Shown piece by piece: positions 15,951-29,610 of a DNA stretch of 46,984 bases (position 1 is the stretch's first letter; every line of letters begins with the position of its first letter). The position numbers and the translations under genes were made by a program. The notes under the pieces were generated by a model. That model saw only the letters and a list, made by a program, of their open reading frames with translations, made no database searches and was not told the origin of the DNA. The DNA is from Bacillota bacterium (GTDB taxonomy: Bacteria > Bacillota > Bacilli > Alicyclobacillales > SLC66), in contig JAJZCB010000021.1 of assembly GCA_021846285.1 (NCBI GenBank), positions 1-46,984 on the forward strand, read 5' to 3'.

Positions 15951-17045
15951 ATGAGTGAGCAGACGGACAGGAAACTGAAGATTGGCATCATTGGTTGCGG
16001 AGGGATCGCCCGAGGAAAACACATGCCAAGCCTGGGAAAACTATCGCAGGTGGACATGACGGCATTTTGCGATCTGAACGCGGCGCAGGCACAGGCGGCT
16101 GCGAAACAGTATGGCGGCGCAGACGCCGCGGTATACACCGATTACCGGGAACTGTTAAAGGATCACAGCATCGATGTAGTGCACGTCTGCACTCCCAATG
16201 CTTCGCATGCGGATATAACGGTAGCGGCTCTTGAAGCGGGCAAGCACGTCATGTGCGAAAAACCGATGGCAAAGACGGTGGAAGGTGCTCGCCGTATGTT
16301 GGAAGCGGCCAAGCGGACGGGCAAGAAACTGACCATCGGTTACAACAACCGGTTTCGCCCAGACAGTGTGTATCTCCATGAAGTGTGCGCGCGCGGCGAT
16401 CTGGGGGACATCTATTTCGCGAAAGCGCATGCGATCAGACGGCGGGCAGTGCCGACCTGGGGCGTGTTTTTGGACGAAGAGCAGCAGGGAGGCGGACCCC
16501 TGATTGACATTGGCACCCATGCTCTCGATCTTGCTTTATGGATGATGGATAACTATGAACCGAAACTGGTCGTGGGCACGACGTATCACAAACTCGGCGG
16601 CAGACCCAATTCGGCCAATGCGTGGGGTCCGTGGGATCCGGCAAAGTTCCAGGTTGAGGACTCCGCCTTCGGATTTGTCGTGATGAAAAATGGGGCAACC
16701 ATTGTCCTTGAATCCAGTTGGGCGCTCAATACTCTGCAGACGGGCGAAGCGCGCTGCACACTCTGCGGAACGGAAGGCGGAGCGGATATGCAGGAAGGCC
16801 TGCGCATCAATGGCGAGGACTTCGGCAGATTGTACGCCACCAAAGTTCAATTGGAAGCGGGAGGCGTGGATTTCTACGACGGAACGGAGGAGAGTTCGGC
16901 CGATCGTGAAGCCAGAGAATGGATCGAGGCCGTCCAGAGCGACGCTGACCCGGTTGTGAAGCCTGAACAGGCGCTGGTTGTTACAGAAATACTGGCGGCC
17001 ATTTACGAATCGGCTCGCACGGGTGAAGCGGTGTATTTCGAGTAG
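15951..17045 (+). CDS. Gfo/Idh/MocA-family NAD(P)-dependent oxidoreductase
   Basis: 364 residues from ATG 15951 with AAGGAGAG upstream. N-terminal Rossmann domain (IGIIGCGGIARGKH, glycine motif at 15-20) and the family CEKPMAKT motif (about residues 102-109) that holds the catalytic lysine. GGGPLIDIGTHALDLALWMM supplies the usual Asp/His active-site pair. Such enzymes oxidise or reduce sugars, inositols and related polyols in the cytoplasm; the substrate cannot be told from sequence. No sugar transporter lies next to it; its downstream neighbour is the phosphate transporter. Confidence 0.88.
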   Translation: MSEQTDRKLKIGIIGCGGIARGKHMPSLGKLSQVDMTAFCDLNAAQAQAAAKQYGGADAAVYTDYRELLKDHSIDVVHVCTPNASHADITVAALEAGKHVMCEKPMAKTVEGARRMLEAAKRTGKKLTIGYNNRFRPDSVYLHEVCARGDLGDIYFAKAHAIRRRAVPTWGVFLDEEQQGGGPLIDIGTHALDLALWMMDNYEPKLVVGTTYHKLGGRPNSANAWGPWDPAKFQVEDSAFGFVVMKNGATIVLESSWALNTLQTGEARCTLCGTEGGADMQEGLRINGEDFGRLYATKVQLEAGGVDFYDGTEESSADREAREWIEAVQSDADPVVKPEQALVVTEILAAIYESARTGEAVYFE

Positions 17046-17103
17046 ACTCGCGGACTTCGGGATTATGAAGATTTCCTAAAGATGCATTCAGTCTCTGCCG
17101 TTC

Positions 17104-17147
17104 TTTATAATTTCTTAACAGTTTTCGTCTATCGTTCATCCTATAGG
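17104..17147 (+). promoter_or_regulatory. Candidate Pho box and promoter before pstB
   Basis: TTTATA (17104-17109) and TTAACA (17115-17120) both fit the PhoP repeat consensus TT(A/C/T)A(C/T)A and are spaced by 5 bp; two weaker repeats (CGTCTA, CATCCT) continue the 11-bp period. A possible -10, TATAGG (17142-17147), follows. PhoP control is inferred. Confidence 0.5.
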
Positions 17148-17171
17148 ATAGTGCTGAAGGAGAGCGTGGCC

Positions 17172-17999
17172 ATGGGCGAAACTGTAGTGGCATTTCGCAA
17201 GCCCGTCGCAGGCGCGGCGGGCCAGTTGCAGGCAATCAGGGCGGAAAGTTCTGATGCGGCGATTGTTACGACTGAATTGAATGCGTTTTTTCGCACGAAG
17301 CAGGTTTTACGCAGCGTCGATCTCGAAGTCGCAAAGGGGCAGATTACGGCGCTTATCGGGCCTTCAGGTTGCGGCAAGACGACCTTTTTGCGCACCCTGA
17401 ACAAAATGAGCCACACAGTTCCCGGATTCCGTCAAACGGGTTCCGTGCGCGTTCTTGGACAGGATATTCGCACGGTTGCGGATGTTGAGACGTTTCGCCG
17501 CTCCGTGGGGATGCTGTTTCAGCGACCCAATCCGTTCCCTATGTCTATTCTCGACAACGTCACCCTTGCCTTGCGGCTCGCTGGCGTTAAGAAGGTTCAG
17601 CGGAGGGAAATCGCGGAGGAACGTCTGACACAGGTGGGTCTCTGGCAGGATGTCAAGGACCGTCTCGACAAATCGCCCTTCCAACTGTCTGGCGGTCAGC
17701 AGCAGCGGCTGTGCCTGGCGCGGGCGCTGGCGGTGGAACCGTCCATTCTCTTGCTTGATGAACCCGCGTCGGCGCTGGATCCAAAATCGACAAGGCTGCT
17801 TGAGGATCTGTTTGTCGGCCTTTCCGGCAGGATGACCCTGGTCCTTGTGACGCACAATCTCAGCCAGGCAAAACGGATTGCCGCCAGGACGGCGTTTATG
17901 GAGGCGGGCGAAGTCGTCGAATATGCGGCGACTGAAGCTCTCTTTTCGGATCCGCAGGATCCGCGGACGGCCATATACGTTCAGGAACACAGCAACTGA
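17172..17999 (+). CDS. pstB: Phosphate ABC transporter ATP-binding protein PstB
   Basis: 275 residues from ATG 17172, 7 nt after AAGGAGAG; the upstream open frame runs through the promoter region. PstB powers high-affinity phosphate import. Motifs: Walker A GPSGCGKT (63-70), MLFQRPNPFPMSI with the Q-loop (114-126, a PstB signature), LSGGQQQRLCLARAL (172-186), Walker B ILLLDEP (192-198), SALDP, and His228. PstB is normally the last pst gene; here it is first, with its own candidate Pho box, ahead of pstS-pstC-pstA. No phoU follows in the window. Confidence 0.93.
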   Translation: MGETVVAFRKPVAGAAGQLQAIRAESSDAAIVTTELNAFFRTKQVLRSVDLEVAKGQITALIGPSGCGKTTFLRTLNKMSHTVPGFRQTGSVRVLGQDIRTVADVETFRRSVGMLFQRPNPFPMSILDNVTLALRLAGVKKVQRREIAEERLTQVGLWQDVKDRLDKSPFQLSGGQQQRLCLARALAVEPSILLLDEPASALDPKSTRLLEDLFVGLSGRMTLVLVTHNLSQAKRIAARTAFMEAGEVVEYAATEALFSDPQDPRTAIYVQEHSN

Positions 18000-18113
18000 C
18001 AGTCTGCCCAATAATCCCGGTCAGTCTTGCTTGTCGCAGGATCAGATGCTTGCTCAACTCAGATTTTTATGGTTTGCTGGTGATCGATGGAAGCGACTCA
18101 AGCGACCCAAACG

Positions 18114-18178
18114 CTTACAGAAACTACCCAGTAACTTTACAATTCCAACAGAATCCGTTTACGTTTCGCCTGTACACT
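18114..18178 (+). promoter_or_regulatory. Candidate Pho box and promoter before pstS
   Basis: Hexamers in an exact 11-bp register: CTTACA (18114), TACCCA (18125), TTTACA (18136), AACAGA (18147) and TTTACG (18158). Three match the PhoP consensus TT(A/C/T)A(C/T)A at 5-6 of 6 positions, two are weak. A -10-like TACACT follows at 18173-18178, about 60 bp before the pstS start. The 238-bp pstB-pstS gap otherwise holds no gene. Confidence 0.6.
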
Positions 18179-18237
18179 TGCATTGTAGCGAAACGAAGGC
18201 TTGCACACTGCAGGCCAAACAAACGGGGGTTGCCGGA

Positions 18238-19380
18238 TTGAAATCAGGACACAGCAAGAAGGCCATGCTGGCAGTCAGCAGCGCACTGAGTCTCGCCAGT
18301 TTGACAGTAGCCGGACTGGGCGGAGCGCCCGCCGCATTTGCACAATCGTCGGCACATGCCAGAGCGTCGGCCGTTCGTCACACGAGCGGACCCGCAGTTC
18401 GTCTCCAGGAAACAGGTTCCACTCTACTCTTCCCACTCTTTCAACTCTGGGTTCCCGCTTACAAAAAAGTGGCGTCAAACGTCTTCATTACACCCAACGG
18501 AACGGGCAGCGGTACGGGCATTCAGCAGGCGGAAGACGGCGTCGTGCAGATCGGCGCGTCTGACGCGTACATGAGCACTGGACTGTTAAGCCAGCATCCT
18601 TCCATGCTGAACATTCCCCTGGCGATTTCCGCGCAGCAGATCATGTATAACCTGCCTGGCCTAAAGGCGAGCACACACTTGCACTTGACCGGCTCTGTCA
18701 TAGCGCAAATGTTTATGGGCAAGATCCGGTATTGGAACGCTCCGCAGATTCAGAACCTGAACCGGGGAATCAAACTGCCGCACGCGGTGATCGTGCCCGT
18801 GCACCGCACAGACAGCAGCGGAGACACATTTTTGTTCAGCCAGTTTATGACAGACACCAATGCGCAGTGGGCGCAGTCCGTAGCTTATGGCACGAGTGTT
18901 CCATGGCCTGCGGTTGCGGGAGCGCAGGGCGGCAATGGCAATCAAGGTGTGGTTCAAACAGCCCAGCGCACGCCTTACAGCATCGCCTATGTGGGTATCA
19001 GCTGGCTTGATAAGGCGCTTTCACACGGGCTGGGGGAAGCGGCTCTGGCGAATCGCACGGGTCGCTTCCTGCTTCCCACGGTCGCCACAATCAGCGCGGC
19101 CGCAGGGCAAATGATCGCAAAGACTCCTCGCGACGAGCGCATCTCCCTCATCTATGCACCCGGCGCCAATTCATACCCGATCATCAACTATGAGTACGCG
19201 ATCGTGAATGAAAACCAATCCAGCGCCGTGGTGGCGCAGGCGATCAAAAATCTGCTGCTTTGGGCGATCAACTCAAAGGGCGGCAATTCAGCGAGTTTCA
19301 TGACAAAGGTGCACTTCCTCCCGCTCCCGACGTCCATCGCACCGCTTAGCCGCGCGCAAATTGAACGGATTCACGGGTAA
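18238..19380 (+). CDS. pstS: Phosphate-binding protein PstS-like (solute-binding protein)
   Basis: 380 residues from TTG 18238, with GGGGGT 8 nt upstream; the frame is open upstream but crosses the pstB end and promoter. The opening MKSGHSKKAMLAVSSAL runs into a signal peptide ending AAFA-QSS near residue 35. PstS marks: ETGSTLLFPLFQLW, TPNGTGSGTGIQQ (phosphate-binding serine/glycine loop), QIGASDAYM, HRTDSSGDTFLFSQFM, and SYPIINYEYAIV. It should bind phosphate outside the membrane for PstC/PstA. Unlike most Gram-positive PstS proteins it has no lipobox cysteine. The weak start codon lowers confidence only in the first residues. Confidence 0.88.
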   Translation: MKSGHSKKAMLAVSSALSLASLTVAGLGGAPAAFAQSSAHARASAVRHTSGPAVRLQETGSTLLFPLFQLWVPAYKKVASNVFITPNGTGSGTGIQQAEDGVVQIGASDAYMSTGLLSQHPSMLNIPLAISAQQIMYNLPGLKASTHLHLTGSVIAQMFMGKIRYWNAPQIQNLNRGIKLPHAVIVPVHRTDSSGDTFLFSQFMTDTNAQWAQSVAYGTSVPWPAVAGAQGGNGNQGVVQTAQRTPYSIAYVGISWLDKALSHGLGEAALANRTGRFLLPTVATISAAAGQMIAKTPRDERISLIYAPGANSYPIINYEYAIVNENQSSAVVAQAIKNLLLWAINSKGGNSASFMTKVHFLPLPTSIAPLSRAQIERIHG

Positions 19381-19420
19381 ACAGACGAACGCCAGATAGA
19401 CAAGATAGGGGAACTGATCA

Positions 19421-20419
19421 GTGACGAGAAGGCGCTTCGGATCAAAACTGTTCGCTGTGACCACCGGCATCGCCGCCGGTGGTCCGCTCGTCGTCATGCT
19501 AGTCTTGATGGGTGTCCTGGTGCGCGATGCGTGGCCTGCGTGGCGCTTTCAAGGTCTCTCCTTCTTTAGCGGCACAGTATGGAATATGGGCAATATGTAC
19601 GCAAACACTCCCATCGTCCGGGCGGGTGTGCAGGGGGCGCCGGGCGCCAGCTTTGGCATCCTGCCGCTTGTCGTCGGCACTCTCTACTCGTCGTTGATCG
19701 CTTTGGCGGTGGGGGTTCCGATTGCTTTGTTGACGGCGGCGGCACTCGTCTATCTGGCGCCAAAGCGCGTCAGCATGTGGTTGTCGCCAGTGATTGATCT
19801 GCTGGCCGGCATCCCGAGTGTCGTCTATGGCCTATGGGGCGTCGAGGTGCTTGCCCCTTTTGTGCAATCAAGGCTGGGACCCTGGCTCTCTCACGTGTTG
19901 CGAATCGCGCCTTTTTTCCATGGCCCAGTAGGTACGGGCATGGGTCTCTTGACGAGCGGTCTTGTGCTGGCTGTGATGATTATACCCATCGTGACGGCGA
20001 CGACCAGAGAACTGCTTGCGCAAGTGCCGCGATTGCCTTATGAAGGGGCGCAGGCGCTGGGGTTGACATCGTATGAAAGCGTGCGGTATGTGGCCTTTCC
20101 CTGGGTCAGCAGCGGCGTGATTGGGGCCGTGATTCTCGGCTGGGGTCGCGCGCTCGGTGAAACGATGGCCGTGCTCATGGTGAGTGGCAATGCGGCCAAC
20201 TATCTGCCGACCAATATCTACAGTCCAATCTCAACGATGGCGTCGACGGTGGCCGCGCTTCTGGACAGTGCACTCACCGACTTTACCGGACTCGCTGTCC
20301 ACGCCCTGGCGCTCATCGCCGTGACGCTTCTTGCGATCACGATGGCGACCAATCTGCTCGCGCGCTCTCTGGTTGCGCTTGGGCGTCGTGGCCTGGAGGC
20401 CGAGGGGGAGAGACGATGA
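19421..20419 (+). CDS. pstC: Phosphate ABC transporter permease PstC
   Basis: 332 residues from GTG 19421 (AGGGGAA upstream). One half of the phosphate channel. About six transmembrane helices, the PstC-type segment GVPIALLTAAALVYLAPKRV, DLLAGIPSVVYGLWG, and the ATPase-contact loop LLAQVPRLPYEGAQALGLTSYE..YVAFPW, then GRALGETMAVLMVSGN. The stop overlaps the pstA start (ATGA), so the two are translationally coupled. Confidence 0.93.
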   Translation: MTRRRFGSKLFAVTTGIAAGGPLVVMLVLMGVLVRDAWPAWRFQGLSFFSGTVWNMGNMYANTPIVRAGVQGAPGASFGILPLVVGTLYSSLIALAVGVPIALLTAAALVYLAPKRVSMWLSPVIDLLAGIPSVVYGLWGVEVLAPFVQSRLGPWLSHVLRIAPFFHGPVGTGMGLLTSGLVLAVMIIPIVTATTRELLAQVPRLPYEGAQALGLTSYESVRYVAFPWVSSGVIGAVILGWGRALGETMAVLMVSGNAANYLPTNIYSPISTMASTVAALLDSALTDFTGLAVHALALIAVTLLAITMATNLLARSLVALGRRGLEAEGERR

Positions 20420-21246
20420 ACGCACGGGCTATCCGATCGAAGGCCGCGTGGAGTATGGCCGCGCTGGCGCTTGCCGTCGTCATGTTCGCTGTGATCGACA
20501 TCCTTGCGCTCGTGGCGGGAAAGGGCGCCGCCGCCCTGAATGGCAGTATTTTTACGACCATGACCACGGGCATTGCCGGCGGATTGCAAAACGCCATTTA
20601 CGGCACCTTTGCTTTAGTGGGACTCGGCATCGTGTTGTCCGTGCCCATCGGCGTGTTGGCGGGAGTGTACGGTGCGCTGTTTGCTCCGGATCCCGTGGCG
20701 AAATTTTTTCGGTTTGTAGCTGAAGTGATGGCTGGTGTGCCATCCATTGTGATTGGGTATTTCGGGTATACCATGTTGGTGGTCGCCTGGGGATTTGGAT
20801 TCTCACTGCTGGCGGGCGGCATCAGTCTGGCCATTTTAATGTTGCCGTACATCGTAAGGGCCACCGAATCAACCATACGGCAACTTCCGCATGGATATAT
20901 GGAAGGCGCAAGAGCACTCGGCATCACTCCGGCGGACGCATTCAGGACGATTCTGTGGAAACCCGCACTGCCCGGCGTTTTAACTGGAGTTCTGCTTGCC
21001 ATATCGATTGGGCTGGGGGAAACCGCCCCGCTGCTATATACGGCTGGATGGTCCAACTTTGACCCAAACTGGCAGTTGACGAAGAATCCGATTGGCTACC
21101 TGACGTACGTGGTGTGGACATATCTTAATGAGCCGTACAGTGCGGCCCATCGCCTCGCTTACGCGGCCGCGCTGCTCCTGACGGCGCTTGTGCTGCTGCT
21201 GCACGTCGCCGCCAAAGGCTTGCAACGTTCTACGCCTGCACAGTGA
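20416..21246 (+). CDS. pstA: Phosphate ABC transporter permease PstA
   Basis: 276 residues from ATG 20416, overlapping pstC by 4 bp, with GGGGGAGA inside the end of pstC. The second channel subunit. Six hydrophobic segments; VMAGVPSIVIGYFGYTML and the loop IRQLPHGYMEGARALGITPADAF..ILWKPALPGVLTG are PstA hallmarks, as is SIGLGETAPLLYTAG. It is the last gene of the cluster. Confidence 0.93.
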   Translation: MNARAIRSKAAWSMAALALAVVMFAVIDILALVAGKGAAALNGSIFTTMTTGIAGGLQNAIYGTFALVGLGIVLSVPIGVLAGVYGALFAPDPVAKFFRFVAEVMAGVPSIVIGYFGYTMLVVAWGFGFSLLAGGISLAILMLPYIVRATESTIRQLPHGYMEGARALGITPADAFRTILWKPALPGVLTGVLLAISIGLGETAPLLYTAGWSNFDPNWQLTKNPIGYLTYVVWTYLNEPYSAAHRLAYAAALLLTALVLLLHVAAKGLQRSTPAQ

Positions 21247-21362
21247 CTGCCACTGGCCTGCGCCGCTCCAAGCTTTCATAATGGCTGCCGAAAGCCGCTG
21301 ACGGCCTGCGCCGATCGCGCGAAATCGAACGGGGTTCCATGCATCGCTATGTGGACCCTGAT

Positions 21363-21383
21363 ACTCCATACTCCATACTCCAT
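21363..21383. repeat. Three tandem copies of ACTCCAT
   Basis: A perfect 7-bp triplet repeat in the 165-bp gap between pstA and the next gene. Nothing else is recognised in that gap apart from two copies of GGCCTGCGCCG about 47 bp apart. Confidence 0.7.
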
Positions 21384-21411
21384 ACTGACTAATGGCGCTC
21401 TGGATAGTTTT

Positions 21412-22071
21412 TCAGTTTGCAAAAATCTCCTTGACGCGCTCAATCGCTGCGGCGTATTGCGGTTTGCTCCAATTGTTGTAGGAAGGGTGCGGCACTTGAT
21501 CGATCACATTCCACAATGGCGACGTGACTGCGGCCAGACGAAAAAATGCCTGTGCGAAACGTCCACAAGGAACAATGAACAGTTCCTGTCCTTGCAGTTT
21601 CACCAGCTTGCGCCTGATGCTGCCAGTGATGATCTGTTGCACGGCGTGTTTGCGCGGATCCGCGAACGTGGTTGTTCCGCCCGTGGTGCGCACCGTGGCC
21701 AGGGCGGCGAAAAACTGCGCGTGCTGCGCCGTCAGTGACGCGTCTGCATAGGCTGCGGCCTGTAACGGAATCTGGCACACGTTCATCAGTCCCACCCTGT
21801 CGATAGAGGGGCGTCTGAGGGCCTCATCGACGTTTTTCTTGACGACAATGCCGAGAGGCAGATGGGCAAACCGTTCACCGAAGAGATGCCTGCTCATGGA
21901 TGCGCCTGACGGTCCGGACACGGGAGCGCCGTGTTTCAGTTCCTGAACATGCGGACTCTCCAAAATAAACAGCACTTTTGTGCGCTCTGTGACGTAGTCA
22001 TTGACAAGGTACTGCGTCGCCAGAGTGTTAAATATGCCTCTGTACTCCTCGTGGAAATCCTCCGCACCCAT
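21412..22071 (-). CDS. Uracil-DNA-glycosylase-superfamily-like protein
   Basis: 219 residues, ATG at 22069-22071; only a weak GGAG lies about 10 nt upstream. The layout recalls the UDG superfamily: a beta strand with an acidic loop VLFILESPHVQEL (33-45), a following GAPVSGPSG stretch, and a late VPHPSYNNW (193-201) in the place of the conserved HPS loop that grips DNA. The usual first motif GExPG is replaced by LESPH, so catalysis on uracil is uncertain and another nucleobase or nucleotide substrate is possible. Function may be DNA repair. A repeat element lies just upstream of its start. Confidence 0.55.
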   Translation of the reverse strand: MGAEDFHEEYRGIFNTLATQYLVNDYVTERTKVLFILESPHVQELKHGAPVSGPSGASMSRHLFGERFAHLPLGIVVKKNVDEALRRPSIDRVGLMNVCQIPLQAAAYADASLTAQHAQFFAALATVRTTGGTTTFADPRKHAVQQIITGSIRRKLVKLQGQELFIVPCGRFAQAFFRLAAVTSPLWNVIDQVPHPSYNNWSKPQYAAAIERVKEIFAN

Positions 22072-22098
22072 GCACTGTCACTCCGTACGGTGGCTTGA

Positions 22099-22170
22099 TA
22101 GACTGTCATGCTGCTGCGCAGCACCAACAACTGGGAAGAAAACGCGCCTGCGGCGATTTTCCGGGATAGA
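22099..22170. repeat. Repeat element copy A (compact form)
   Basis: Two blocks shared with copy B at 29455-29610: block 1, 28 nt (22099-22126, one mismatch), contains the 12-bp palindrome TGCTGCGCAGCA; block 2, 17 nt (22154-22170, one mismatch), reads CGATTTTCCGGGATAGA. The 27-nt spacer can pair imperfectly within itself (GAAGAAAACGCGCC with GGCGATTTTCC). It lies right before the 21412-22071 gene. The family is unknown to me. Confidence 0.65.
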
Positions 22171-22518
22171 ATTTGCGGCGCACAAGCGCTTCGGAACTGT
22201 TGCAGTTCCTTTGTGGGGATGAGTTTGCCTGTCAGAGCCGTGTTCATGGGTTGAGTATAGCACAAGGTCATGGGAGAGGATGGCGTATCCAAACATGTTG
22301 ACGTTCGCTATTGTCAGTCCGGTGTCTTGCCCCTCGTTCTGCGGTCCGGCTAGCGGTATGGTCGGGTTGAGATGTTCTACCCGTCCACCCCGCAATCCGG
22401 AAGCGACAGCGGCCACCGGGCACATGACGATGGCGAACGCGAGCGCCATCTCCAACCCGTGATGGAACGGCCCGGTCAGGAGGACCTGGAAAACGCCTGC
22501 CCCGTTGCGGAGCATGGC
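22171..22518. other. Gene-free stretch
   Basis: No supported gene. A 7-bp hairpin, GGAACTG (22193-22199) with CAGTTCC (22203-22209), lies next to repeat copy A. Reading frames cross the area on both strands, but none has a ribosome site or recognisable protein; a short degraded gene cannot be excluded. Confidence 0.5.
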
Positions 22519-22734
22519 CGACGATGACGGAGCCGACGACTTTACGGAGCCGACGATGACGGAGCCGACGACTTTACGGAGCCGACGATGACGGAGCCGA
22601 CGACTTTACGGAGCCGACGATGACGGAGCCGACGATGACGGAGCCGACGATGACGGAGCCGACGATGATGGAGCCGATGATGACGGAGCCGATGATGACG
22701 GAGCCGATGATGACGGAGCCGATGATGATGGAGC
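22519..22734. repeat. Tandem repeat array of 14 units (15 and 17 bp)
   Basis: Fourteen head-to-tail units. Eleven are 15 bp (CGACGATGACGGAGC and close variants); three are 17 bp with a CTTTA variation (22534-22550, 22566-22582, 22598-22614), alternating with 15-bp units at the distal end. On the minus strand the 15-bp unit encodes Ala-Pro-Ser-Ser-Ser, forming the tail of the 22606-23682 protein. The 17-bp unit supplies its TAA stop (22606-22608) and shifts the frame. The array continues about 87 bp beyond that stop. Confidence 0.9.
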
Positions 22735-23682
22735 GGTTGTGGTCGGAACTACCGGATTCTCGATGCTGGTTTTCACACTGCTATAGGCTGTGTCTTGAAT
22801 GGAAATTGGGGCCGTCTTTGCCAGACTCGCCAACAACTCCGGAGCCGTTGGCGCCTTTTGACTCTTGATCGCGAGGATGATTTGCGCTTTCACGGAAGCC
22901 ATGGACGGCGTAGAGGCAGGAGTTCTTGAGGTCACCTTCAAGATTTCCCACCCGGACGTGCTATCCACAGGCGCCCCCACACGCCCCACCGGTTGGCTAA
23001 AGGCCGCTTTCGCGGTTGCTGGATCCAATTGTGAATAACTGAAGGTTCCCATCACGCCCCCTTTATTCGCAGTGGTCTTGTCCAGCGAATATTTCTTGGC
23101 AGCAGCGGCAAAACTGTACCCGCCTTGCAACTTTGCGGCGACTGCATCCGCTGTGGCTTTATTTTTCAGGAAGATGACCGATAGCTTCACTTCAGCAGGC
23201 ACTTGGAGCGTCTTCGTATTTTTTGTGTAATACTGTTTAATCTCGGTGTTCGTGACTTTCACTTGGCTCTCGGCAACTTTCTGGGCCAGCACTTGCAACT
23301 TTAGTTGGGACTGAAGTTCGGACATCGTCAAGTTGCTTTGAGCCAGCGCTTGTTGGAGTTGCGCCGTACTGGTGATGCCGTTTTGTTGTTCGAGTGAGGC
23401 GAGCGCCGACTGAATATCCGACGAGGTCGCGACCACATGATCCTTCTTCGCCGCGTCAGTCAAAAGCTGCTGGGTGATCATATTGGTCAGCGTTCCAGAT
23501 CCTACAGCCTTGGCCATTTGATTGTCCCAAGCAGTGCTATGAATGGCCGTTCCTCCCACGGTTGCGATGACGGGCCCCCCTTGTTCCTGTGCTGATGCGA
23601 CAACCCAGCACACGCCCACAATGGCCGCACCCAAGCATGTTCCACCGATCAGAGACCCCATGTGATAATTGGCGAATTTCAA
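22606..23682 (-). CDS. PrsA/SurA-like peptidyl-prolyl isomerase (foldase) with repetitive Ser-Pro tail
   Basis: 358 residues from TTG 23682, with AGGAG 13 nt upstream (long spacing). A hydrophobic N-terminal segment (10-31) anchors or exports it; its cysteines (16, 25) are not in a convincing lipobox. Residues 60-150 resemble the SurA/PrsA N-terminal chaperone helices. About 163-252 form a parvulin-type rotamase domain: EVKLSVIFLKNKATADAV, FAAAAKKYSLDKTTANKGG, and a final GWEILKV strand. PrsA proteins fold exported proteins outside the membrane. The tail from about 316 is TTAPSSS followed by repeated SAPSS units, encoded by a tandem repeat array that continues past the stop, so tail length may vary between strains. 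Confidence 0.8.
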   Translation of the reverse strand: MKFANYHMGSLIGGTCLGAAIVGVCWVVASAQEQGGPVIATVGGTAIHSTAWDNQMAKAVGSGTLTNMITQQLLTDAAKKDHVVATSSDIQSALASLEQQNGITSTAQLQQALAQSNLTMSELQSQLKLQVLAQKVAESQVKVTNTEIKQYYTKNTKTLQVPAEVKLSVIFLKNKATADAVAAKLQGGYSFAAAAKKYSLDKTTANKGGVMGTFSYSQLDPATAKAAFSQPVGRVGAPVDSTSGWEILKVTSRTPASTPSMASVKAQIILAIKSQKAPTAPELLASLAKTAPISIQDTAYSSVKTSIENPVVPTTTAPSSSAPSSSAPSSSAPSSSAPSSSAPSSSAPSSSAPSSSAP

Positions 23683-23766
23683 TGTGATTTGCCAACTCCT
23701 ATCCGCTTAGTGTAGTCACAAGACTTAGCCTAGTCCTATACCCTTGAGGTTTGCTTAAGGATCCTG

Positions 23767-23797
23767 ATTAAAAAGAGGTCTTACCTGATCCCTCTTT
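23767..23797 (-). terminator. Terminator for the small membrane protein gene (minus strand)
   Basis: On the minus strand AAAGAGG (23797-23791) pairs with CCTCTTT (23778-23772) and is followed by a T-rich run into TTTTAATC. A second hairpin, GTTATGAT/ATCATAAC with a 3-nt loop, lies at 23808-23826. The gap between the two minus-strand genes (23683-23896) holds no gene. Confidence 0.55.
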
Positions 23798-23896
23798 GAA
23801 CAGGCTAGTTATGATTCCATCATAACCATTTTCTGATTGGCCTGGAATACCATCGAGATACTGGAGGGAGATAGGAGAAGATTTAAAGAGAACTTC

Positions 23897-24217
23897 TTAA
23901 GGCAAATGACGTTCATACATGAACCAGGAAACCGCCCTTATAGACGGTAAAATAAAGGCGATAGGCGTGTAAACCCAGAATCCATAGTAAACGATAATGC
24001 CAAAAGAGGCGACAAAGGAAATAACCATTACGAAATTTGTTCCGACACTGTTTATTGGGTTTCTGGAAAGGACAAGGCCATTCATATCCTTTAGTTCTTC
24101 CGAGTAACAGTTTGTATGATAAGCACAAATTCTTAAGAAGTAGAAAGCAGTAACGAGTTCAGACCGATGCATTATCTCATTATTGCATTTTTCGCAGTAA
24201 ATGTCTGCCTGTTTCAT
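23897..24217 (-). CDS. Small membrane protein with N-terminal cysteine cluster, unknown
   Basis: 106 residues from ATG 24217 with a strong GGAGGT 6 nt upstream. The N-terminus has CEKC (8-11) and a later C31..H34..C37, which could bind a metal like a small zinc ribbon. Two transmembrane helices follow (about 60-78 and 82-100). The gene is visibly richer in A/T than its neighbours, as is the DNA from about 23690 to 24520, suggesting later acquisition. I do not recognise the family. Confidence 0.6.
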   Translation of the reverse strand: MKQADIYCEKCNNEIMHRSELVTAFYFLRICAYHTNCYSEELKDMNGLVLSRNPINSVGTNFVMVISFVASFGIIVYYGFWVYTPIAFILPSIRAVSWFMYERHLP

Positions 24218-24643
24218 GATCTACCTCCAAAATAGTCGTCATTATGGCTTCCGCAAAAGGTGTTATTTAAATAGGAACTTGCGTTTCTGGGTTATTTGAT
24301 CATTCCGTTTGCCCTGAGTATATCTTGCTCCCCGTGATTTGAACAGACACTGATCGGAAGCCTGGCGCACATTATCAACCCATCCTTCGCTTGTACGCGC
24401 TTTCGAGGAGGTAGGTCGTCTCTCAGGAGGCGTGCCGCTCTCAGCGATTTGCTTTCTCTCTGAATGTAACTCCTTATCTCGCTGGATATGGCATAATGGA
24501 CACATGAACTACACATCGCATATAGCTGTTCAAAACGTTAAATCGGAACTTTCCTGGTCTATGCATCGCGTCGGGGCGCCTGCAGCTTTTGTCTCTAATG
24601 GCTCCACGGCAGTGAGGAGAGGTTAGCCAGGGCGAAACCGGGA
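24218..24643. other. Gene-free stretch, partly AT-rich
   Basis: About 425 bp with no supported gene. Short open frames exist on both strands but lack ribosome sites and recognisable protein. It holds the upstream region of the minus-strand membrane protein and presumably the promoter of the following E1-like gene, which I could not pinpoint. Confidence 0.5.
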
Positions 24644-25711
24644 GTGACGCACAGAAACATGAGTGATCATCAACAAGACGGGCTGACGGATGAACTGGAC
24701 AGCCGTTATTCGCGACAGATTCTGTTTCGCCCGATCGGCGCGGCGGGTCAGGAGCGGTTGCAGCGGTCGCGGGTGGCCGTCGTCGGCATGGGCGCCTTGG
24801 GAACAGCCAGTGCGTCGCAACTGGCTCGGGCGGGCGTGAAGTATCTGCGTCTCATCGATCGGGACATCGTGGAACAATCCAATCTGCAGCGTCAGTCTCT
24901 CTACGATGAGTCTGACGCCTCAGGCAGCGTTCCAAAAGCGCTGGCTGCGGCAGAAAAACTGCAGCGCGCCAATAGTGACGTGGACATCGATCCCGTTATT
25001 GCGGATGTAACGGCCAAAAACGCGGAAAGGCTGCTCGCCGATGTCGACGTGATCGTCGATGGCACAGACAATTTCCAGATTCGCTATCTGATCAATGACG
25101 TATCTGTGAAACACGGCATCCCCTGGGCCTACGGAGGCGCGGTGAGTTCTTACGGCACGATAGGATTGCTGCGCCCAGGGCGCACACCCTGTCTGGTCTG
25201 TCTGTTTGGCGCGCAGCAGGGCGGGGGGCACGACACCTGCGATACAGTTGGCGTGATCGCTCCGATTGTGTCGATGATCGCCTCCCTTCAGGTCGCGGAG
25301 GTGATCAAACTGTTGACCGGTCATGAAGACGCGCTGAATCCTGGCCTTACATATATTGACGTTTGGACAAACGAAGTGCGCAAGATTCACTTTCAGGAGC
25401 CCGATCCACAGTGTTTCTGTTGCGGACAGCGTACGTTTGCCGCGCTGTCGGCTCGCAGCGATGCGCTGACAGTGTCGTTGTGCGGACGGCGGACCATTCA
25501 GGTGAAACCGGAATCCCCGCCCGCATGGTCGCTGGAGACGGTGGCGCAGAGACTGCGCGCGGTGGGCGAGGTGCGCCACAACGCCAATCTGCTGCGCTGC
25601 GATCTGGGGGCGATTCAAATCTCTCTGTTTGCAGACGGAAGGGCGTTGATTCACGGCACCGACGACGACACGGAAGCGCGTGCGCTATACGCCCGCTACA
25701 TCGGCATGTAA
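24644..25711 (+). CDS. ThiF/MoeB-family adenylyltransferase (E1-like)
   Basis: 355 residues from GTG 24644; ATG 24659 is an equally possible start, neither having ideal ribosome-site spacing. E1-like enzymes use ATP to adenylate the C-terminal glycine of ThiS or MoaD-type sulfur carriers. Seen: RYSRQILF (21-28), nucleotide motif GMGALG (48-53), LIDRDIVEQSNLQRQ (70-84) with the conserved Asn/Arg, DGTDNFQIR (139-147), zinc pairs C183xxC186 and C257xxC260, and a Cys199 in the DTCDTVGV position of the catalytic cysteine. The last 90 residues are a less conserved tail resembling a small carrier-like or regulatory domain. No carrier gene is adjacent, so thiamine versus molybdopterin pathway cannot be decided. 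Confidence 0.88.
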   Translation: MTHRNMSDHQQDGLTDELDSRYSRQILFRPIGAAGQERLQRSRVAVVGMGALGTASASQLARAGVKYLRLIDRDIVEQSNLQRQSLYDESDASGSVPKALAAAEKLQRANSDVDIDPVIADVTAKNAERLLADVDVIVDGTDNFQIRYLINDVSVKHGIPWAYGGAVSSYGTIGLLRPGRTPCLVCLFGAQQGGGHDTCDTVGVIAPIVSMIASLQVAEVIKLLTGHEDALNPGLTYIDVWTNEVRKIHFQEPDPQCFCCGQRTFAALSARSDALTVSLCGRRTIQVKPESPPAWSLETVAQRLRAVGEVRHNANLLRCDLGAIQISLFADGRALIHGTDDDTEARALYARYIGM

Positions 25712-25770
25712 GGGGGGGTATGCGGCAGGCAAGGTCGGCATAAAAATGGCAGGGGAGAGGGGATAGTCGG

Positions 25771-27465
25771 TTGAAATTTTCGGAGTTTCCATACATACGG
25801 CCCGACATGGACGCGATGCTGGCTCGCTTTGAGGCGTTGCTGGAGCGATTGGCAGGCGCTGGGAGCGCCGAAGAGCAGTCTGCGGTCATGGAAGAGATCA
25901 ATCAGGCAAGGGCGGAGTATGACTCGCTGGCGCAGATCGCCCAAGTCCGGCATACGATTGACACGACCGATGAGTTCTATAAGGCGGAGCAGGATTTTTT
26001 CGACGAGTCTGGACCTGTCTACCAGGGGATCGTCACACGCTACTATGAAACCTTGACGGCGTCGCCGTTTCGCGATGCTCTGGAGAGCAAATGGGGAACG
26101 CAACTCTTTCGGATTGCGGAAACCTCTGTGAAGACATTTAAGCCCGAAGTGCTCGCAGACCTTCAGGCGGAAAACAAGCTGGTGAGCGATTACGTCAAAT
26201 TGCTGGCGTCTGCCAAAATTTTGTTTGAGGGCGAAGAACGCAATCTCTCCCAACTCGGTCCGTTTTTGGAAGCCACCGACCGCGCGATGCGCAGACGGGC
26301 CAACGAAGCGAAGTATGGGTTCTTCAGAGAGCAAGAGGAGCGCCTTGATCAGATTTATGACGACTTGGTCAAGGTGCGGACGGCGATCGCCCATAAACTC
26401 GGATTTGCCAATTTTACAGAATTGGCGTACGCGCGACTGACGCGCACTGACTACGATGCGCCTATGGTGGCTGTGTTTCGCGAACAGGTGAAACGTCACA
26501 TCGTGCCTGCGGCCACTCGCTTGCGGGAGCGTCAACGCGCGCGCATCGGCGTGGACACACTGCGGTATTACGACGAACGGTTCAGTTTCAAGACCGGCAA
26601 TGCGACCCCCAAAGGGGATCCGGATTTTATCGTGGCGGCCGGCCGACGAATGTACCGGGAACTGTCACCGGAAACGGACGCGTTTTTTTCCTACATGACC
26701 GATCACGAACTGATGGATCTGGTGAGCAAGAAGGGGAAGGCGGGGGGCGGTTACTGTACCTACATCACGCAGCATAAGGCGCCCTTTATTTTCTCCAATT
26801 TTAACGGCACGTCGGGTGATGTGGACGTACTGACCCACGAAGCGGGCCACGCGTTCCAGGTGTATTCGAGCGGCCGTTTTCAGGTTCCGGAGTATCACTG
26901 GCCGACCTACGAAGCGGCGGAGATCCACTCGATGAGCATGGAGTTCTTCACCTGGCCGTGGATGGAACTGTTTTTCGCAGACGATGTGCAAAAGTACAAG
27001 TTCTCGCATCTGGGCGGGGCGCTGTTGTTCATTCCCTACGGAGTCGCGGTCGATGAATTTCAGCACTTTGTCTACGCCCATCCGGAGGCCGGCAAGGAGG
27101 AACGCAAACGGGCATGGCGCACTATCGAGCGCGCATATCTCCCGCATCGCGACTATGAAGACAACGATTATCTGGAACGCGGAGCGTTCTGGCATCAGCA
27201 GAGTCATATCTTTAGCGTACCGTTTTACTATATCGATTACACGCTGGCCCAAATCTGCGCCTTTCAGTTTTGGGTTCGCGCCAATCAGAACCGCGCCCTG
27301 GCGTGGGCCGACTATCTCACGCTCTGTCAAGCTGGAGGCAGCAAACCTTTCACCGAACTCGTCAAAGTCGGGAACCTGCTGTCCCCATTTGATGAAGCGT
27401 GCGTGTCATCGGTGATCGGCGATATCGAGTCCTGGCTTGACGACGTCGATGATATGGCGTTATGA
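25771..27465 (+). CDS. M3-family oligoendopeptidase (PepF-like zinc metallopeptidase)
   Basis: 564 residues from TTG 25771 (GAGAGGGG about 9 nt upstream). Cytoplasmic zinc peptidases of this family cut short peptides and would suit the peptide import genes in the window. The zinc site is HEAGH (356-360), with a third ligand likely Glu384 in AAEIHSMSMEFF, 28 residues on, the M3 spacing. The N-terminal helical lobe covers 1-200. Length is typical of bacterial oligoendopeptidase F-like enzymes. It begins 59 bp after the E1-like gene and may be co-transcribed. Confidence 0.92.
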   Translation: MKFSEFPYIRPDMDAMLARFEALLERLAGAGSAEEQSAVMEEINQARAEYDSLAQIAQVRHTIDTTDEFYKAEQDFFDESGPVYQGIVTRYYETLTASPFRDALESKWGTQLFRIAETSVKTFKPEVLADLQAENKLVSDYVKLLASAKILFEGEERNLSQLGPFLEATDRAMRRRANEAKYGFFREQEERLDQIYDDLVKVRTAIAHKLGFANFTELAYARLTRTDYDAPMVAVFREQVKRHIVPAATRLRERQRARIGVDTLRYYDERFSFKTGNATPKGDPDFIVAAGRRMYRELSPETDAFFSYMTDHELMDLVSKKGKAGGGYCTYITQHKAPFIFSNFNGTSGDVDVLTHEAGHAFQVYSSGRFQVPEYHWPTYEAAEIHSMSMEFFTWPWMELFFADDVQKYKFSHLGGALLFIPYGVAVDEFQHFVYAHPEAGKEERKRAWRTIERAYLPHRDYEDNDYLERGAFWHQQSHIFSVPFYYIDYTLAQICAFQFWVRANQNRALAWADYLTLCQAGGSKPFTELVKVGNLLSPFDEACVSSVIGDIESWLDDVDDMAL

Positions 27466-27549
27466 CGTTGCGACGACATCGCCGAAGGTTGGTTGGTTGA
27501 TTGCGTTCGCGGGGCAGGCCAGTTTGGACCATAGTACGGGAGGTCTATT

Positions 27550-28554
27550 ATGATGCGCAAAATGACACTCATCGCTGGCGCTGGAATGATTCTGGCGCAA
27601 CTGTCCATCGTTGGTCTGGCATCGGCGAACGCGCGCGCGTCCACGCCGGCGCTTCCCAGACCGCCGTACGTCTACAGGAGCGTCGAGACGATGGTTAGCC
27701 CAGAGGACAGTTGGAACCATGTTACGGAACAGTTTGGATACCAGGACCAGATGATAGTGAGCAAGGGCAACGACTGGCTTTCGCTGTCTTTCATTCGACA
27801 ATCAATGGGGGAAGCCGGAATTCCAAGCGCGCTCGCGAGTCGGACTCTGAACTTCACGGTTCCCAAGTCCATCCCGGTGGATTTCCGGCGTCTTCCACCG
27901 CATCCCGCGCCGGGCGCAAACGAGTTGGGCATTAAGATCGATGGTCGTATGACGGCCGTTCTACCGTGGTTGAAGAGCGCGCAGTTGCAAGATTCGTACG
28001 TTCCGAGCAGTCTGGCCATGGCGGTCCTGCGCCGCATCGGCGTGAAAATGCGATGGAATCACAGTGCCGGCAGCTTTACCCAATGGGACATCGGTTCACC
28101 CGTGTACGGGGCTATGACCACCGTCACGTTGTTTGGCGGCGGTCATATGACGTCTACCAGATCAGGCATACTCATCGTCAGAAAGGGCGACAACTGGATT
28201 CCCGTCGACTACATTGCGAACTCACTGGACAATGCAGGAGCAGGCATCACAGTCGACATGCCGAGTGACCATGGATTCGATATCCAAGTTCCGGCGGGCA
28301 TCAGGGTCAACCTCAAGAATCTTGCGGGCCGGCGAGACAGGACGGCGAACCAGGTTCCCATCGAAATCAACGGCCGCATCGTGGGGTACTCCTCATGGCT
28401 CGTTCCTACTTATGGTCCGAGCACCGAATATCTGTCCAGCGCTGCGGTCATGACCGCAGTCCGCCGCATTGGGCTCAACATGCACTGGAACAACACCAAC
28501 GGAACCTTCACGAAGTGGTTTATTACTGCGCCGCCGCGGCGTTCCGGCAATTAA
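27550..28554 (+). CDS. Secreted protein with internal duplication (copper-amine-oxidase-N-like modules), unknown function
   Basis: 334 residues from ATG 27550 (ATG 27553 also possible), after GGGAGGT. Signal peptide of about 30 residues ending ANARA-S. Two homologous modules: residues 69-179 and 209-323. Both run IVxKGxxW(L/I), a (I/F)xxSxxxAG segment, a VxxxxL stretch, ANxxxIxIxGR, then an (R)RIGxxMxWN....GTFTKW ending. That pattern resembles the short stalk modules annotated copper amine oxidase N-terminal-like in Bacillota, in which the final NxxxxxFT motif recurs. No catalytic residues are recognisable. The role could be wall or surface binding; this is inferred from export and duplication only. 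Confidence 0.7.
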   Translation: MMRKMTLIAGAGMILAQLSIVGLASANARASTPALPRPPYVYRSVETMVSPEDSWNHVTEQFGYQDQMIVSKGNDWLSLSFIRQSMGEAGIPSALASRTLNFTVPKSIPVDFRRLPPHPAPGANELGIKIDGRMTAVLPWLKSAQLQDSYVPSSLAMAVLRRIGVKMRWNHSAGSFTQWDIGSPVYGAMTTVTLFGGGHMTSTRSGILIVRKGDNWIPVDYIANSLDNAGAGITVDMPSDHGFDIQVPAGIRVNLKNLAGRRDRTANQVPIEINGRIVGYSSWLVPTYGPSTEYLSSAAVMTAVRRIGLNMHWNNTNGTFTKWFITAPPRRSGN

Positions 28555-28572
28555 GCTGCGCCGGGTCTCGCT

Positions 28573-28630
28573 ATTCGTTCGCATTTTGTTGGCGGAACGC
28601 CTTGCCAAGTCAAAATGCATCGAATAAACT
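28573..28630 (+). promoter_or_regulatory. Candidate promoter with inverted repeat before the toxin-antitoxin pair
   Basis: TTGCCA (28602-28607), 17-bp spacer, TAAACT (28625-28630). An inverted repeat surrounds it: GCATTTTG (28581-28588) with CAAAATGC (28611-28618), plus TTGGC/GCCAA inside and ATTCG/CGAAT outside. Toxin-antitoxin operons are usually autorepressed through such sites; the hairpin could also terminate the upstream gene. Confidence 0.45.
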
Positions 28631-28664
28631 GGTCCTAGAGACCGGTTCAAAGGAGGAGCGGAGC

Positions 28665-28904
28665 ATGAAGGAGGTGGGGTCCCATGAGGCTAAGACGCAC
28701 TTGGCCGAATTGCTGGATGACGTCGCTAACGGGGAAACCGTGTTAATCACTCGACGCGGCAAACGAGTGGCTCAGATCGTGCCATACAGGGACACGGACG
28801 ATTCGTTGGAGGCCATTTGGAGCCGTCTGCAAACCCTGCGCGCGCATGCGAAGAGCGGAGAGCCGTCGATCCGCGAGATGATCGAGGAAGGGCGGCGCTT
28901 TTGA
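28665..28904 (+). CDS. Type II antitoxin, Phd/YefM family
   Basis: 79 residues from ATG 28665, with AGGAGGAG upstream; the longer open frame upstream covers the promoter and is not used. The N-terminal fold KEVGSHEAKTHLAELLDDVANGETVLITRRGKRVAQIVP is the Phd/YefM DNA-binding domain. The tail (LEAIWSRLQTL..SIREMIEEGRRF) should bind and block the toxin. It is one base from the PIN toxin gene, the standard antitoxin-first order. Confidence 0.88.
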   Translation: MKEVGSHEAKTHLAELLDDVANGETVLITRRGKRVAQIVPYRDTDDSLEAIWSRLQTLRAHAKSGEPSIREMIEEGRRF

Positions 28905-28905
28905 T

Positions 28906-29310
28906 ATGACGTTTGTTCTCGATGCGTCCGTGGCGCTCAGTTGGTGTTTTCCTGATGAGTCGAACGAGTATGCGCAAGACGTGTTTCGACGCTTGTCTGC
29001 CGACGACGCCGTTGCACCGGCAATTTGGCCATTTGAAGCAGCCAATGCATTGGTGGTTGGCTCGCGCCGGGGCCGCATCACAGTGGAACAGGCACGCGAG
29101 GGGATCCGTTTATTAGCCAAGGTCGGCGTAAAACTGGACTCCGCCGTGGAACTGACGTCCCGGTCGGCGCTTGAATTGGCGGTCGTTCACGGACTGTCCG
29201 TGTATGACGCCGCCTATCTGGCCTTGGCGCAACGGCTCAACGTTCCGCTGGCCACGGCGGATCAAAAACTGCAACGGGCGGCCCGCGAATTGATGCTGAG
29301 CATCGTGTGA
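28906..29310 (+). CDS. Type II toxin, PIN-domain ribonuclease (VapC-like)
   Basis: 134 residues from ATG 28906, one base after the antitoxin stop. PIN-domain toxins cleave RNA, often tRNA or rRNA, using acidic residues around Mg2+. The acidic set is complete: Asp6 (FVLDAS), Glu44 (WPFEAANAL), Asp101 (SVYDAAYLALA) and Asp119 (ATADQKL). Size and order with a Phd antitoxin fit VapBC-type modules. RNA target unknown. Confidence 0.88.
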   Translation: MTFVLDASVALSWCFPDESNEYAQDVFRRLSADDAVAPAIWPFEAANALVVGSRRGRITVEQAREGIRLLAKVGVKLDSAVELTSRSALELAVVHGLSVYDAAYLALAQRLNVPLATADQKLQRAARELMLSIV

Positions 29311-29454: not shown

Positions 29455-29610
29455 TAGACTTTCATGCTGCTGCGCAGCACCATCGGAGGAATGAAAGTTC
29501 GCTTGGCCAGAACCGTATGCTGTGCCGAGGCGAGTTCGGCGTAGCCGTGTTTGAGAAGCGGCACAGCATACGGTTCTGGCGGGCAGGAGCAATCGATTTT
29601 CCGGAATAGA
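29455..29610. repeat. Repeat element copy B (with nested hairpin)
   Basis: Carries the same two outer blocks as copy A: 29455-29482 (28 nt) and 29594-29610 (17 nt, CGATTTTCCGGAATAGA), in the same order. The spacer is 111 nt instead of 27 because a 75-bp hairpin segment (29506-29580) sits inside it. The element lies in the 333-bp gap between the PIN toxin gene and the end of the citramalate-synthase-like gene; I see no gene in that gap. Confidence 0.65.
29506..29580. repeat. 22-bp perfect inverted repeat, 31-nt loop
   Basis: Arms 29506-29527 and 29559-29580 are exact reverse complements (GCCAGAACCGTATGC at the start of the left arm). The loop includes a smaller palindrome, GGCGTAGCC. There is no T-run after either arm, so it is not a plain terminator. 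It appears as an extra segment within repeat copy B. Confidence 0.9.

Follow-up and report, generated by a model that had tools for sequence, protein, structure and literature searches.

Coding minisatellites, or VNTRs, occur in the low-complexity tails of proteins. Their units are multiples of three in length, the copies are near-identical, and the number and order of the units depend on the lineage. Tandem repeats inside genes can also have consequences of another kind: in the phase variation of poly-N-acetylglucosamine in Staphylococcus aureus, repeat changes reportedly alter expression.

Here we analyse a stretch of 46,984 nucleotides from a Bacillota bacterium (contig JAJZCB010000021.1), referred to below as the window, in which a tandem repeat forms the 3' end of a foldase gene and runs on across its stop codon. 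The locus is very probably a coding minisatellite in the disordered, tolerant Ser/Pro tail of a PpiC/SurA_N (PrsA-like) foldase, in which the newest slippage copied the stop codon into the trailer. The comparison covered three species of the genus, each represented by one draft: the window and the genomes JA6.bin5 (L029) and DX2.bin20 (L030), hereafter JA6 and DX2, whose sequences are low-coverage MAG contigs (coverage 2.0 and 2.9, respectively).

Anatomy of the repeat array

Tandem Repeats Finder placed the array at 22517-22734 of the window, with a period of 15, 14.1 copies and a score of 319. The next best score in the window was 52, and the best score across 50 first-order Markov simulations of the window was 68; the repeat in the foldase tail is far beyond chance. 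Read in the direction of the gene, on the minus strand, the segment 22734..22519 splits without remainder into 14 units, eleven 15-mers (units 1-8, 10, 12 and 14) and three 17-mers (units 9, 11 and 13), in the order of eight 15-mers followed by 17-15-17-15-17-15. The array comprises the final 126 bases of the foldase gene before the stop and the 87 bp past it. The sequence-only reading that preceded this work had described fourteen units extending over the 3' end of a PrsA-like gene and about 87 bp beyond its stop, and Tandem Repeats Finder and the unit parse confirmed this description; its statement that the 15-bp units keep the frame and encode Ala-Pro-Ser-Ser-Ser was found to be correct for the coding part. 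The features are as follows (evidence in parentheses).

22606..23682, minus strand: foldase gene, 358 amino acids, with a putative TTG start as listed; SurA_N-like N-terminal part, PpiC/Rotamase domain and Ser/Pro tail (open reading frame list, Pfam, PDB matches, structure model, fold search, dN/dS)
22615..22734, minus strand: translated units of the array, 1-8, all 15 bp long and encoding Ala-Pro-Ser-Ser-Ser (unit parse)
22598..22614, minus strand: unit 9, the first 17-mer, consisting of GCTCCG (Ala-Pro), TAA and the 8-bp trailer AGTCGTCG (unit parse, congener comparison)
22606..22608, minus strand: TAA stop codon in use (open reading frame list, unit parse)
22519..22597, minus strand: untranslated units of the array, 10-14 (15-17-15-17-15), forming a higher-order repeat with a 32-bp period (unit parse, flank alignment)
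22566..22597, minus strand: a single 32-bp period of that repeat, made up of units 10 and 11 (unit parse)
22486..22518, minus strand: unique 3' flank, beginning with GCCATGCTCCGCAACGGG (alignment with the congener flanks)

The coding units 1-8 vary at third codon positions only. Units 6, 7, 8, 10, 12 and 14 are identical, and the differing units are found at the 5' end of the array. The untranslated part holds two spare TAA-bearing 17-mers, and all three 17-mers of the window are identical to one another. The longest exact self-match within the array is 87 bp at an offset of 32. In the own genome, a draft of 164 contigs, the 19-mer GGCTCCGTAAAGTCGTCGG had no second exact copy and one match with two mismatches (on C153), and a search with the tail peptide returned a single match, the tail itself.

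The foldase and its Ser/Pro tail

The gene product contains a PpiC-type rotamase domain (PF00639, 60.2 bits with a cut-off of 21.7; PF13145 and PF13616 were also matched) and a SurA-like N-terminal domain (PF13624, 38.3 bits with a cut-off of 27.2), and PF09312 stayed under its cut-off (21.6 vs 30.8 bits). PrsA of Bacillus subtilis (4wo7, 7.1e-20) and PrsA1 of Listeria (5htf, 3.9e-18) were the top sequence matches in the PDB, and the same two structures came first when the predicted structure of the foldase was used in a fold search. Single PpiC domains match the model at 0.8-0.9 by target length. The whole-chain TM-scores, by query length, are low (0.30 and 0.35 for 4wo7 and 5htf), thus the arrangement of the domains is poorly matched to the PrsA structures. 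The cut-offs of the NCBIfam PrsA equivalogs were missed widely (NF002827, 74.5 of 343 bits; NF002846, 67.2 of 361 bits), and NF000809, the best of ten NCBIfam matches, was also under its cut-off with 111.5 of 303 bits. Inspection by eye of an alignment of 12 sequences revealed no recognisable lipobox and no invariant Cys column; both Cys residues near the N-terminus of the window protein, in Gly-Gly-Thr-Cys and Val-Gly-Val-Cys, lie by eye outside any lipobox. Because no lipobox was seen and the NCBIfam PrsA cut-offs were missed, we call the foldase PrsA-like rather than a PrsA in the strict sense. The protein is probably exported, as judged by eye from its hydrophobic N-terminus.

Identity of the foldase protein to that of the window, tails included, is 86% for JA6 and 88% for DX2, and 91% and 89% for the body. 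The values with tails included derive from the 12-sequence alignment (A3), from which L010 and L011 (on the contigs of L029 and L030), the partial matches L024-L028, and L017, L021 and L022 (genus already in other rows; their tails were read separately) were omitted. The dN/dS values of the body, 0.243 against JA6, 0.251 against DX2 and 0.154 against G010, which belongs to another genus of the same family, show that the foldase gene is under constraint, with purifying selection on the body.

The tail follows a conserved Asn-Pro (residues 309-310 in the window) and is 48 residues long in the window, 64 in JA6 and 58 in DX2. After this Asn-Pro G010 has 32 irregular Ser-rich residues and G006, also of the own family, has 10, and 3-10 residues follow it in 10 of 10 orthologs of a genus that belongs to another family of the order. 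Of the orthologs whose ends were read, only those of this genus have the regular repeat tail, a shorter irregular Ser-rich tail being present in one other genus of the family, and the order-level orthologs end about where the tail of the window protein starts. The structure model is mostly confident in the body; residues 313-352 have a pLDDT below 50, a value that may alternatively stem from the shallow alignment of 12 sequences. None of the five Pfam matches to the foldase is to an anchor family, the protein ends at Ala-Pro-stop, and nothing is located beyond the repeat for a stalk to hold or anchor. The suggestion of the sequence-only reading that the tail has the makings of a variable surface-protein stalk is therefore unsupported, because the tail is a C-terminus predicted to be disordered and unanchored, starting where orthologs end; an anchored stalk was ruled out for want of an anchor or a distal domain. 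The tail is most likely a flexible C-terminal extension whose length is little constrained, and this Ser/Pro/Ala sequence is probably dispensable.

The 17-mer in the congeners

The stretches of JA6 and DX2 that were compared contain exactly one GCTCCGTAAAGTCGTCG each, located at the stop of the orthologous gene. It is preceded by seven coding units of 18 bp and one of 24 bp in JA6, and by nine coding units of 15 bp in DX2, six with Ser in place of Pro (GCTTCG). The coding units counted number 8 + 8 + 9 over the three species, and each of these 25 has a length divisible by three; the sole unit whose length is not, the 17-mer, sits at or past the stop. Immediately past the array, the window flank begins with bases that align with the sequence directly after the single 17-mer in both congeners. 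As judged from this comparison, the 17-mer is the native, conserved gene end, Ala-Pro-TAA plus the first 8 trailer bases; it is not a frame-switching unit, because it is present in a single copy at the stop in both congeners. Unit number, unit order and unit length vary among the three species of the genus, thus the variability anticipated for the tail in related strains was found between species (n = 3), where number and order are not identical.

Origin of the array

The segment TCGTCGGCTCCGT is common to both unit types, the 15-mer and the 17-mer, across their junctions. Slipped-strand mispairing or unequal recombination between such common segments may have multiplied the in-frame units separately in each species. 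In the window lineage, a 32-bp block consisting of one 15-mer and one 17-mer would have been duplicated across the stop, which would account for the two additional stop-bearing 17-mers of the 3' trailer. At the protein level the duplication across the stop is silent. Because the final unit is a 15-mer rather than a 17-mer, the gene end would not simply have been copied head to tail; one duplication junction is suggested to lie inside the common TCGTCGG. We infer the slippage itself from the sequence alone.

Misassembly could have given a wrong number of 32-bp copies in the window because the longest exact self-repeat is as long as 87 bp, and the genome is a draft in 164 contigs. However, it is highly improbable that the downstream 32-bp copies as such are an error of short-read assembly: the array splits into units without remainder, the neighbouring sequence is colinear with JA6 across 4 kb (19801-23758 of the window, at 91%, nearly all of the 4036-base JA6 contig), and an assembly error would more probably have merged copies than added them.

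Effect of unit changes on the protein

Losses and duplications of units were examined in silico. Loss of a single unit yields a protein of 353 amino acids for units 1-8, 363 for unit 9 and 358 for units 10-14, and duplication of a single unit yields 363 for units 1-8 and 358 for units 9-14. The last ten residues were unchanged in all 28 single-unit changes (14 of 14 losses and 14 of 14 gains), and the frame of the translated tail was altered in none of the 28. With 1 to 5 copies of the 32-bp block the protein always had 358 amino acids. The prediction that gain or loss of units changes tail length thus proved right, the changes being in-frame 15-bp steps (353, 358 or 363 amino acids). It had also been predicted that loss of the first 17-bp unit would extend the protein; it does, but only by five amino acids (from 358 to 363), as translation then ends in the same way at the following 17-mer. 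The view that the 17-bp units bring a TAA and shift the frame held for the TAA; it failed for the frame shift, since these units, the native gene end, lie at or after the stop and the C-terminus survives every single-unit change.

Loss of any two 17-mers still leaves the end at Ala-Pro-stop. Long extensions resulted only from the loss of all three 17-mers (517 amino acids) or of all 32-bp blocks (502 amino acids), both of which open the frame into 22078-22515, a 145-codon open frame downstream. This frame has a 61% match in JA6, broken by a stop and a gap, and no match in DX2. Extension of the protein into it was rejected as a candidate, given that all three 17-mers would have to be lost and that a stop interrupts the corresponding stretch in JA6.

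Because the end remains Ala-Pro-stop when any one unit or any two 17-mers are deleted, it could be argued that the Ala-Pro-stop cassette was repeated under selection to keep the terminus intact when slippage removes units. This is highly unlikely: the spare stops are present in only one of the three species, the three 17-mers are identical and therefore recent, and translation reading through the first TAA passes through the spare stops in another frame. Because the readthrough frame runs on through them, the spare stops do not qualify as fail-safe stops as understood in PMC6764699, which in any case reports no compelling evidence of bacteria selecting for additional stops. There is likewise little probability that the array is a self-buffering gene end, in which the amplified cassette shields the terminus from slippage; if it were, the tail would be free to grow and shrink with the C-terminal sequence held constant. 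Finally, a phase-variable or contingency locus, in which gain or loss of 17-bp units switches the frame and hence the C-terminus of a surface protein, would fit the fact that 17 is not a multiple of three and the 517-residue fusion of the tail to the 3' open frame, but it is very improbable indeed, as the C-terminal residues are kept in 28 of 28 single-unit changes, loss of the relatives' single 17-mer would add merely 12 (JA6) and 14 (DX2) residues, the downstream frame is broken in JA6 and without a match in DX2, and all three species keep their coding units in frame. A frame-switching role of the 17-mers was rejected on the in silico unit changes and the single 17-mer in both relatives.

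Surroundings of the array

When 17001-29000 of the window was compared with 12.9 + 14.0 kb of DX2 and 4.0 + 5.5 kb of G010, the DX2 matches were confined to 22517-23780 and those of G010 to 22727-23757. The plus strand carries the phosphate transporter genes pstS-pstC-pstA at 17878-21246 (NCBIfam matches above cut-off); the real PstS start is probably downstream, because the first 175 residues of the listed 500-residue frame are outside the family match. After pstA, at 21361-21386, Tandem Repeats Finder detected a 7-bp tandem repeat (ATACTCC, 3.7 copies, 100% match). A small UDG-superfamily-like protein is encoded between the pst genes and the foldase gene (21412-22071, minus strand; PF03167, 28.4 bits with a cut-off of 24.3), for which there was no NCBIfam match.

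A dispersed element of about 73 bp at 22097-22170 is matched at least 42 more times in the own genome, some of these matches being neighbouring or partial, with 82-95% identity (40 of 82 candidates scored). Seven copies were aligned; four of them have a common core in the same orientation, and the other three align poorly because they lie on the opposite strand and were aligned without reorientation. Inverted repeats were seen by eye, the element is kept at the same place in JA6 (92%), and a 28-bp partial match (96%) occurs at 29455-29482. The element looks like a REP-type or MITE-like sequence. The own genome has six matches to the Y1 transposase family (PF01797), but the three transposase loci examined contain no copy of the element.

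No Rfam family reached the gathering score anywhere in the window, and a reading of the locus as an RNA element was dropped. A terminator scan of 21900-24300 gave two terminator-like sites, compared with a mean of 2.4 in shuffles, and none was beside the foldase stop.

Comparison with known systems

Among the literature matches listed, no description of this arrangement was recognised, and novelty is not claimed. The locus is a small, clean case of tandem-repeat evolution in a protein tail, with three species and differing unit lengths, all in frame, and one lineage has copied its stop codon into the trailer without an effect on the protein. It also illustrates that units of non-triplet length can occur in a coding repeat without acting as frame switches, a question that comparison with relatives decides. 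If the array varies within populations, it would be a handy marker and little more.

With the PrsA foldases of Bacillota (4wo7, 5htf) the window foldase shares the SurA-like N-terminal part and the PpiC domain. It differs from them in having no lipobox recognisable by eye, in falling far under the NCBIfam PrsA cut-offs and in bearing a repetitive Ser/Pro tail. Contingency loci with slipped-strand repeats, an example being the phase variation of poly-N-acetylglucosamine in S. aureus (PMC4117637), have a tandem repeat inside a gene, as does the window foldase; in contrast to the altered expression reported there, single-unit changes in the window alter at most five tail residues.

The array resembles the coding minisatellites or VNTRs: the tandem coding units are in frame and multiples of three (25 of 25 in three species), the copies are near-identical, and number and order vary from lineage to lineage. 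Unlike in those systems, the array of the window crosses the stop codon, and the end unit that bears the stop has itself been multiplied.
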